A program made the position numbers and the translations under genes. From the NCBI RefSeq assembly GCF_000024985.1, contig NC_013523.1, positions 2,542,001-2,606,000 of the forward strand: a stretch of 64,000 nucleotides of DNA. Reading direction: 5' to 3'. The notes under the pieces were generated by a model. The model saw only the letters and a list, made by a program, of their open reading frames with translations. It did not search any database and was not told the origin of the DNA. This DNA comes from Sphaerobacter thermophilus DSM 20745. GTDB taxonomy: Bacteria; Chloroflexota; Chloroflexia; Thermomicrobiales; Thermomicrobiaceae. Every line of letters starts with the position of its first letter. The first letter of the stretch is position 1. Shown here one piece after another: positions 51,359 to 57,404 of this stretch.

Positions 51359-51847
51359 TTACGCCCGCACGGTCAGGCGCTGGTCCTCGCCTTCGGACTC
51401 CCGGGCGTAGGCATAGCCCGCACCGGTCACGATACCGCCCAGCACGTCGTACAACCGGTTCATCTCCTCGCGGCTGACCCCGGCCACGCCCAGGATGTCG
51501 TCCACCGTGACCGTCATGTCGAACCGGTCCTCCAGTGCCTCGGGGAGGCCGTCGCCAGGGAGATCGGAGATCAGAATCTCCCCCTCCTCGGCTGTCATGG
51601 CCCGCGATCGCACGTCCCCGCCGAGCGCCTCAGCACTGAGCTGCAGGAGGAGCGTGCTCGCCTCCACGCCGGGTGTCCCCATGGCGCCCCAGGTTTCGCC
51701 CAGCCGGGCAGCGGCATAGTCGATGAACCCGTCGATCCCGCCCTCGCGTTCTCGCACGTAGGCCAGCGCCAGACCAACCAGCGTCAATCCGGTCAGCCGG
51801 CACCAGGCCAGCAACTCCTGCGGGGTATACGGCCGTGGCTCGAGCAT
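51359..51847 (-). CDS. Hypothetical protein
   Basis: 162 residues; GAAGGGAG lies before the ATG. Soluble and largely helical, with an acidic middle (AEEGEILISDLPGDGLPEALEDRFD). LAWCRLTGLTLVGLALAYVRERE near the N-terminus is amphipathic. No known motif. It is convergent with the ABC permease and lies beside the DnaA-box region. Confidence 0.7.
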   Translation of the reverse strand: MLEPRPYTPQELLAWCRLTGLTLVGLALAYVREREGGIDGFIDYAAARLGETWGAMGTPGVEASTLLLQLSAEALGGDVRSRAMTAEEGEILISDLPGDGLPEALEDRFDMTVTVDDILGVAGVSREEMNRLYDVLGGIVTGAGYAYARESEGEDQRLTVRA

Positions 51848-51925
51848 CCGTCGCTCCCTTCGCTACGTTTTCCCAGGCCTCGCTGGTGCCGCCGGGTCAA
51901 GACCGCGACGATCCTGCGGCCGGGA

Positions 51926-52209
51926 TGTGGAGAAATCCACGCCTGATGTGGATAACCGCGTGGATTTGTGGAAATCCGTGTGTACACCCGCGGTGTTGAT
52001 GGGGAAAGCGCCCGTCTGGCCGTGGGCGGCGTGGGGATGGTCGTGGCATTGACAAGGAAGTCACACCGGCTGTCCCCAGCCTCCTGTGGAGTCGTGGACG
52101 GCTTGTCCACACACCACCCACGGGCGAAATCCCCGTCTGGACGCGGATCTTCCCGCTTTTCCCCACCGTCCACAGTCTCTACTAACCACGACGGTTATCT
52201 TCATCCACA
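51926..52209. other. Cluster of DnaA-box-like sequences, possible origin region
   Basis: 51848-52353 holds no gene. It contains TGTGGATAA (51947-51955, perfect DnaA box) and one-mismatch boxes TGTGGAGAA (51926-51934), TTGTCCACA (52103-52111) and TCATCCACA (52201-52209). Weaker boxes are at 51967-51975 and 52166-52174. Left boxes point one way and right boxes the other. The right end is relatively A/T-rich (AAAGAGATTAAC). This resembles oriC or a DnaA-titration site. Confidence 0.55.
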
Positions 52210-52291
52210 AAGAGATTAACACGCGAGGACCACCCCGCTCCGGTCATGTCTCAGGTGCCGGTGCATCTCGCACCGTCTCCAATCACGAGAG

Positions 52292-52334
52292 TGGCCCTCA
52301 CCCTCAGCCCTTCTCCCAACGTTGGGAGAGGGGG
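52292..52334. repeat. R1 core-only repeat
   Basis: GGCCCTCACCCTCAGCCCTT then CCCAACGTTGGGAGAGGGGG, a palindrome beside the DnaA-box cluster. Confidence 0.7.
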
Positions 52335-52353
52335 TTACTCAGAGGATGCGTGA

Positions 52354-53325
52354 TCAATAGAAGATCGTGCGGGTGCGGTGGTAGGGAAGAGTACCGGCCG
52401 GGAGGCGCTGGCCCTCGTCCCAGAGCAGCCAGTCCACCTGGTAGGCATCAAGCGCGTGCCCGCGGCTGGCCAGCGCGCGCCGCAGCTCCTCGACGCCCCA
52501 GATGGTCGCCGCGCGGATCTCAACCTCCTCCGGGCTGCCGGCGGGGATCTCCTCCCGGCGGGCCAGCCGGTCGTGCAACGCCGGCGCGTAGCGCAGGATG
52601 CCGAGGTGGTGGAGCACCTGGGGCACCTTGTAGTCGGCGAAGGCCGTCAGCTCCCCCAGGTCGTCGAATGCCCCGAGGTCGGACCCATCGAACGCGCCAT
52701 AGAGGTCGCTCACGAGGATCTGGGCGCGCTTGTAGAAGCGCACCTGTTCTCCCCGGTAGGTCGCCACATCCCGGAACGAGGGAAAGGCATTGGTGACGAT
52801 GTCGACCAGCGCGACGGCGCTCCTACCGGCCGCGGCGATGGCGTCCGAGAAGCGGCCGGCGAAGCGCTCGGCCAGGACACTCCCGGTCTCGCGGAGGATG
52901 CGGGCACGCTCGTCGAGCAGCGGGATCTCCCCTTCGCCGGCGAAGATGGTCGCTACGTCGTCGCGGGTAATCTCGGCCAGGTAGCTGGCATCGGTGAGCG
53001 GCACACCTTGTTCCAGTGCGCGTTTCAGCGACGCTGCCAGGGCCCAGTACCCGTCGTAGACGGCGCCGGCGTACTCGATGCGCCAGCGCGGCTCGCCCCA
53101 GAAGCAGAAGTTGACCGCATCGAGCACGAGGATGTAGTTGGCCAGGGCCTCCCGGCCGTCGCTCCAGTGGAGCTCGCGGTTCCAGGTCGGCGGCGTCACC
53201 TGCCGCGCGGCGAAGGCCTCTGCGATCTGCGCGACCGCGTCGTGGTCAATCCACACCGCCTGTGCCTGCTCCACCACGCGCCGCGTCGTCGTCAGGACTC
53301 CCAGCCGGTCGCCGGGGTCAGCCAT
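52354..53325 (-). CDS. Queuosine salvage protein (Qng1/DUF2419)
   Basis: 323 residues; GGAGGGAGGG precedes the ATG at 53325. Family blocks: FWGEPRWRIEY after an aromatic NFCFW near residue 75, VDIVTNAFPSFRDV near 175, YKRAQILVSDLYGAF near 200, and LTAFADYKVPQVLHHLGILRY near 228, which holds the conserved Asp and Lys. The family releases queuine from queuosine 5'-monophosphate for tRNA modification. A Sphaerobacter member has, as I recall, been studied structurally. No queuosine transport or tgt gene is near. Confidence 0.87.
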   Translation of the reverse strand: MADPGDRLGVLTTTRRVVEQAQAVWIDHDAVAQIAEAFAARQVTPPTWNRELHWSDGREALANYILVLDAVNFCFWGEPRWRIEYAGAVYDGYWALAASLKRALEQGVPLTDASYLAEITRDDVATIFAGEGEIPLLDERARILRETGSVLAERFAGRFSDAIAAAGRSAVALVDIVTNAFPSFRDVATYRGEQVRFYKRAQILVSDLYGAFDGSDLGAFDDLGELTAFADYKVPQVLHHLGILRYAPALHDRLARREEIPAGSPEEVEIRAATIWGVEELRRALASRGHALDAYQVDWLLWDEGQRLPAGTLPYHRTRTIFY

Positions 53326-53398
53326 GGGCCCTCCCTCCATTCGGGCACTGCGTTATCCGAGGAGAGAATAGCACGCGGCGGCGCGTCGGCCGGTGCGG

Positions 53399-56887: not shown

Positions 56888-57340
56888 GTGGAGCGAACGC
56901 TCATCATCGTGAAGCCGGATGGAGTCCAGCGCGGGCTGATCGGGGAGGTCATCGCGCGGCTGGAGCGGCGCGGCTTGAAGGTCGTCGGGCTGAAGATGAT
57001 GCAGATCAGCCGCGAGCTGGCCGAGCAGCACTACGGGGTGCACCGGGAGCGACCGTTCTTTGCGAGCCTGGTCGAGTACATCACCTCGGCCCCGGTGGTG
57101 GTCGGCGTCCTCGAGGGGCCGAAGGCCATCGAGGTGACGCGGGCGACCGTGGGGGCCACCAACCCGGTGGATGCGGCGCCCGGCACCATCCGCGGCGACT
57201 TCGGCCTCACCATCGGCCGGAACCTGATCCACGCCTCGGACGGCGCGGAGTCTGCGGAGCACGAGATCAACCTGTTCTTCCGGCCGGAGGAGCTCATCTC
57301 CTACGAGCGCGCGGTCGATCCCTGGATCGTCGAGGAGTAG
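56888..57340 (+). CDS. ndk: Nucleoside-diphosphate kinase
   Basis: 150 residues from GTG with GGAGGGA upstream. [20 protein letters not shown] at the start, [14 protein letters not shown], and the active-site block [20 protein letters not shown] with the phosphorylated His are intact. It balances NTP pools by transferring the gamma-phosphate through a phospho-His. Length is normal for the family. parS-like sites lie in the gap just after its stop. Confidence 0.97.
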
Positions 57341-57350
57341 CCGCGGCGGG

Positions 57351-57404
57351 TGTTTCACGTGAAACATGGCGGAGGCACCGTGCGACGACGTTTCACGTGA
57401 AACA
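57351..57404. other. Two parS-like ParB-binding sites
   Basis: TGTTTCACGTGAAACA (57351-57366) is a perfect 16-base palindrome that matches the chromosomal parS consensus as I know it. CGTTTCACGTGAAACA (57389-57404) differs at one end base. Their centres are 38 bases apart, in the gap between ndk and the MOSC gene. CCGCGG at both outer edges makes the pair a larger inverted repeat. Confidence 0.8.

Follow-up and report, generated by a model that had tools for sequence, protein, structure and literature searches.

A DnaA-box cluster uncoupled from dnaA as the probable chromosomal replication origin of Sphaerobacter thermophilus

Where does replication of the main chromosome of Sphaerobacter thermophilus, a thermophilic member of the Chloroflexota, begin? 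We analyzed a 64,000-nucleotide stretch of that chromosome (the window; C1:2542001-2606000), in which an earlier note, made from the letters alone, had pointed to a cluster of DnaA boxes as a candidate replication origin. The genome comprises 3,993,764 bp in two contigs, C1 (2,741,033 bp) and C2 (1,252,731 bp), and the smaller replicon of S. thermophilus DSM 20745 was termed a plasmid in the genome paper (PMC3035262). The candidate cluster falls at C1:2593926-2594209, on the 2.74-Mb main replicon. In the literature searched, we found no oriC with DnaA boxes described for Sphaerobacter, Thermomicrobia or Chloroflexota, and no experimental origin for the phylum Chloroflexota; DoriC lay outside that scope and may hold a prediction.

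A cluster of DnaA boxes in a gene-free gap

The features on which our analysis draws are as follows (window coordinates):
51848-52353 (506 bp), unstranded: gene-free gap with the candidate oriC, between an ORF at 51359-51847 (minus) and the Q_salvage ORF at 52354-53340 (minus)
51926-51934, minus: DnaA box 1, TGTGGAGAA (TTCTCCACA on the minus strand), one mismatch, start of a phased triple array
51947-51955, minus: DnaA box 2, perfect, TGTGGATAA (TTATCCACA), 21 bp from box 1
51967-51975, minus: DnaA box 3, weak, TGTGGAAAT, 20 bp from box 2
52103-52111, plus: DnaA box TTGTCCACA, one mismatch, oriented opposite to the triple array
52157-52174, plus: tandem weak boxes TTTTCCCCA (52157-52165) and CCGTCCACA (52166-52174), 9 bp apart
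52179-52184, plus: CTACTA, equivalent to two DnaA-trios (3'-GAT-5') on the opposite strand
52180-52220, unstranded: A/T-rich stretch, probable unwinding element, 62% A/T per 40 bp
52201-52209, plus: DnaA box TCATCCACA, one mismatch, within the A/T-rich end
52354-53340, minus: gene for a queuosine salvage protein (Pfam Q_salvage), conserved neighbor of the cluster
56888-57340, plus: ndk, nucleoside diphosphate kinase, conserved neighbor of parS
57353-57364, unstranded: parS site 1, TTTCACGTGAAA, exact match
57391-57402, unstranded: parS site 2, TTTCACGTGAAA, exact match

The one perfect and three one-mismatch boxes that the earlier note had reported are all present, together with three weaker ones (51967, 52157 and 52166) that score under the usual threshold, and the gap that holds them has no ORF. 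Such a density had been judged unlikely by chance, and our simulations agree: these 284 bp have four boxes with no more than one mismatch, and a 4th-order Markov model yielded two at most among 300 simulated 64-kb windows. When we scanned 1.338 Mb of C1 (about half; the remaining half was covered by exact pattern searches only), no other 284-bp stretch equaled it, and the next best, with three boxes, was the mraZ promoter. Only four perfect DnaA boxes occur genome-wide, one in the gap, two at mraZ and one single. The gap thus holds what is expected of an oriC, an intergenic DnaA-box cluster beyond chance.

The first reading had not picked up the triple array with its phasing, the CTACTA trios behind the tandem boxes, or the presence of dnaA on the same chromosome. 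The array (TGTGGA-N15-TGTGGA-N14-TGTGGA, 51926-51972) is unique in the genome and stands about 180 bp from the tandem-box module. The flanking genes do not diverge from this point, an observation already set against an origin in the earlier note, and it holds. Beside the candidate origin, at 52280-52335, we also noticed an inverted repeat, CTTCTCCCAACGTTGGGAGAGGGGGTT, which is probably dispersed because a near-identical element lies in locus L004 (about 2180-2215).

A probable unwinding module, parS sites and the GC-skew minimum

The right end of the gap was described as A/T-richer, and this is borne out: A/T content over the 40 bp at 52180-52220 reaches 62%; the window as a whole averages 31%, and this value ranks at its 99.9th percentile. 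This A/T-rich element adjoins the boxes, as in an oriC. A basal unwinding system (BUS) consists of one or more DnaA boxes, a spacer of up to 16 bp and then DnaA-trios (PMC8287927), and the same order of box, spacer and trio is found at 52157-52184, where TTTTCCCCA-CCGTCCACA is followed by a GTCT spacer and CTACTA. TTTTCCCCA is nearer consensus (two mismatches) than CCGTCCACA and lies 13 bp from CTACTA. Two GAT trios are clear and further repeats are degenerate; the published search program requires at least three NAN triplets. The layout resembles the BUS of Bacillus subtilis oriC, which likewise has several boxes, tandem boxes directly before 3'-GAT-5' trios (CTACTA) and A/T-rich DNA (PMC8287927). 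Unlike the B. subtilis element, the Sphaerobacter locus lies away from dnaA, its tandem boxes are weak, and a same-direction triple array with 21/20-bp phasing stands about 180 bp off on the other side.

The parS-like pair noticed 5 kb away is real. Exact TTTCACGTGAAA occurs twice in the genome, both copies at ndk, so that parS sites lie near the candidate, as expected of an oriC. We dropped parAB as a local origin marker; ParB is encoded at C1:525600 and C2:229119. The ParB gene of the main chromosome is about 0.67 Mb from the parS sites and the other is on C2, which has no exact parS of the TTTCACGTGAAA type.

We computed GC skew from stretches that make up about 49% of the chromosome, with samples of 16-20 kb along C1 and near-complete coverage around the candidate (near-continuous from 2.40 Mb across the contig end to 0.22 Mb, with about 3 kb missing). 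Sampled skew is positive at about 0.24-1.28 Mb and negative at about 1.32-2.57 Mb, with the opposite switch at about 1.302 Mb. Along the near-continuous stretch, cumulative skew reaches its minimum at C1:2,569,900 (-2202), 24 kb from the candidate (-2156), whereas dnaA stands at -1496; the candidate is thus 46 units above the minimum and dnaA 706. This was the check that the earlier note had proposed, and it places the minimum in the candidate region and not at dnaA. The switch from negative to positive skew expected of an oriC is therefore found here, and it is sharper in two relatives (G017 and G020, below). Because the minimum lies in a wide, flat basin (about 2.50-0.11 Mb) that also takes in dnaA, skew backs the region and not the exact gap. 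Replichore symmetry does not separate the candidate from dnaA.

That dnaA is not at the cluster, as previously remarked, proved correct: the gene lies at C1:440, from which it follows that C1 is numbered from dnaA, and the distance across the contig end is 147 kb if the contig is circular. Adjacency to dnaA, a common but optional mark of an oriC, is accordingly lacking. We found no DnaA-box cluster at dnaA (2.4 kb at the gene and 20 kb at the contig end), and no rival cluster near the skew minimum in the near-continuous stretch. The oriC of E. coli also lies apart from dnaA on its chromosome; its neighbors and box layout differ from those of the Sphaerobacter candidate, and E. coli is not known to have chromosomal parS/ParB. 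Separately, we observed that L002 (C1:1761076-1761519) encodes a further protein carrying an ATPase domain of the DnaA type (open frame of 287 aa), which may be a helicase loader resembling DnaC/DnaI; most relatives searched also show a weaker second match. Domesticated dna[CI] genes have been reported in Chloroflexi (PMC5109545).

Conservation in the family and across Chloroflexota

Ten other genomes of the family, among them Sphaerobacter sp. HOG56, Sphaerobacter sp. Bu17, Thermalbibacter longus and a Thermomicrobium sp., carry a box cluster beside Q_salvage, 4-6 kb from ndk-parS. Of 21 family genomes, 18 have one or two parS copies, with all 14 good-quality genomes among these 18, and a copy adjoins ndk in every family locus fetched. 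In G017, sampled skew is negative below the locus and positive above it, with a local minimum at 1,099,904 and the cluster starting at 1,101,433 (1.5 kb apart), and dnaA lies at 1,834,031, 733 kb from the cluster. In G020, too, the skew flip coincides with the cluster, and dnaA lies only 7 kb from it (L110, L151; G020:C3 288857-296005). Comparison of the two genomes shows that the skew switch goes with the cluster and not with dnaA. The short distance in G020 is perhaps ancestral, predating relocation of dnaA in the other genera. At seven family loci (L097, L098, L100, L101, L104, L109 and L110) our simple box/CTA pattern missed the unwinding element, which is divergent there by eye, with a related ACTACGG or CTACGG often visible.

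A parallel comes from Thermomicrobium roseum, of the same lineage, whose origin was placed solely by GC skew, near dnaX (PMC2615216). Its replication genes are described as dispersed, which suggests that dnaA does not mark the origin there either; unlike what we see in the Sphaerobacter candidate, DnaA boxes and parS are not named in the part of that account on which we draw (PMC2615216).

To look further afield, we trained a profile on 22 loci from other families of the class, excluding the candidate's own family. Run against 1.338 Mb of C1, it gave a single match (E up to 10), at window 51946-52206 with E=4.2e-10. Of 300 Chloroflexota genomes sampled, 76 have the TGTGGA triple array when gaps of 14 or 15 are allowed, a count that includes some simple repeats in G056, G220, G285 and others; the array is usually in one copy, nearly all listed matches have 15+14 gaps, and the 21/20 phasing in the window agrees with that of relatives. 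In some Chloroflexus-type genomes the array is distant from dnaA, as in G027, where the array is at 1.967 Mb and dnaA at 0.8 kb. A TCCAC box, then a CTA motif within about 12 bp, then A/T-rich DNA appear in 20 of the 22 class loci, most of which also have the tandem-box arrangement of 52157-52174. Q_salvage as a neighborhood marker fails in most of the more distant Chloroflexota. We consider it probable that many Chloroflexota share one origin blueprint (a 21/20-phased triple array, about 180-200 bp, then tandem boxes, trios and an A/T-rich element), kept through deep divergence while dnaA moved freely.

Alternative readings and a proposed course of initiation

Taken together, skew, box density, conservation with parS and Q_salvage, skew flips in two genera and the out-of-family profile support the candidate put forward in the earlier note, and we put the probability that 51926-52220 is the oriC of the main S. 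thermophilus chromosome at roughly 0.94. Sites that titrate or regulate DnaA, such as datA or DARS of E. coli, likewise combine multiple DnaA boxes with the absence of dnaA. Such a site, near a distinct true origin, would fit the box cluster, and the flat skew basin leaves room for an origin elsewhere inside it. This is nevertheless improbable, since the cluster has an unwinding module (tandem boxes, CTACTA and A/T-rich DNA), the skew switch in other genera sits on the cluster itself, and neither the near-continuous stretch at the skew minimum nor dnaA offers a competing box cluster.

More improbable still is an origin at dnaA (about C1:1), the arrangement of most bacteria, with the cluster as a relic. 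The numbering of C1 from dnaA and the position of the gene within the broad basin would suit it; we reject it given the lack of a box cluster in the 2.4 kb at dnaA and the 20 kb at the contig end, a cumulative skew well over the minimum, and G017, whose cluster sits at the skew flip with dnaA 733 kb off. Box phasing and trios are also kept across families, which is unexpected for a relic. Equally hard to credit is a promoter-type array mimicking DnaA boxes, like the repeats that MraZ binds in front of mraZ. In this genome, the repeats of the mraZ promoter do include two perfect TTATCCACA, but the gap is not upstream of mraZ (its neighbors, both minus-strand, do not include that gene), its boxes face both ways and are accompanied by trios and A/T-rich DNA, and its location is conserved with parS. 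We therefore rejected this reading too and regard the mraZ promoter as a useful control. The repeats there, TTATCCACA / TTATCCCCA / TTCTCCCCA (L004 1501-1549; C1:2221291-2221341), are probably the MraZ operator.

The locus is thus best read as a chromosomal origin that depends on DnaA, has a basal unwinding module and is apparently uncoupled from dnaA. Elements of this kind are known; the new points are an origin anchored in this lineage and its conserved phased architecture. That initiation occurs at 51926-52220 we infer from features visible in the DNA: boxes, phasing, trios, the A/T-rich end, parS, the skew minimum and conservation. DnaA would bind the three phased boxes at 51926-51975 and the single box at 52103, and the tandem weak boxes at 52157-52174 would nucleate a DnaA filament that runs onto the adjacent CTACTA trios. 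The filament could then melt the A/T-rich end (52180-52220), the predicted site of helicase loading, and ParB bound to the parS pair 5 kb off may segregate the newly copied origin.

Most automatic origin calls rely on dnaA, which lies 147 kb from the candidate origin here and 733 kb in one relative, and repeats upstream of mraZ that mimic a DnaA-box cluster are a trap for origin finders. As a defined DNA substrate, the candidate could serve to study how phased boxes direct unwinding. A dnaA-independent signature for Chloroflexota origins would fix replichore maps and enable growth-rate estimates from metagenomes.
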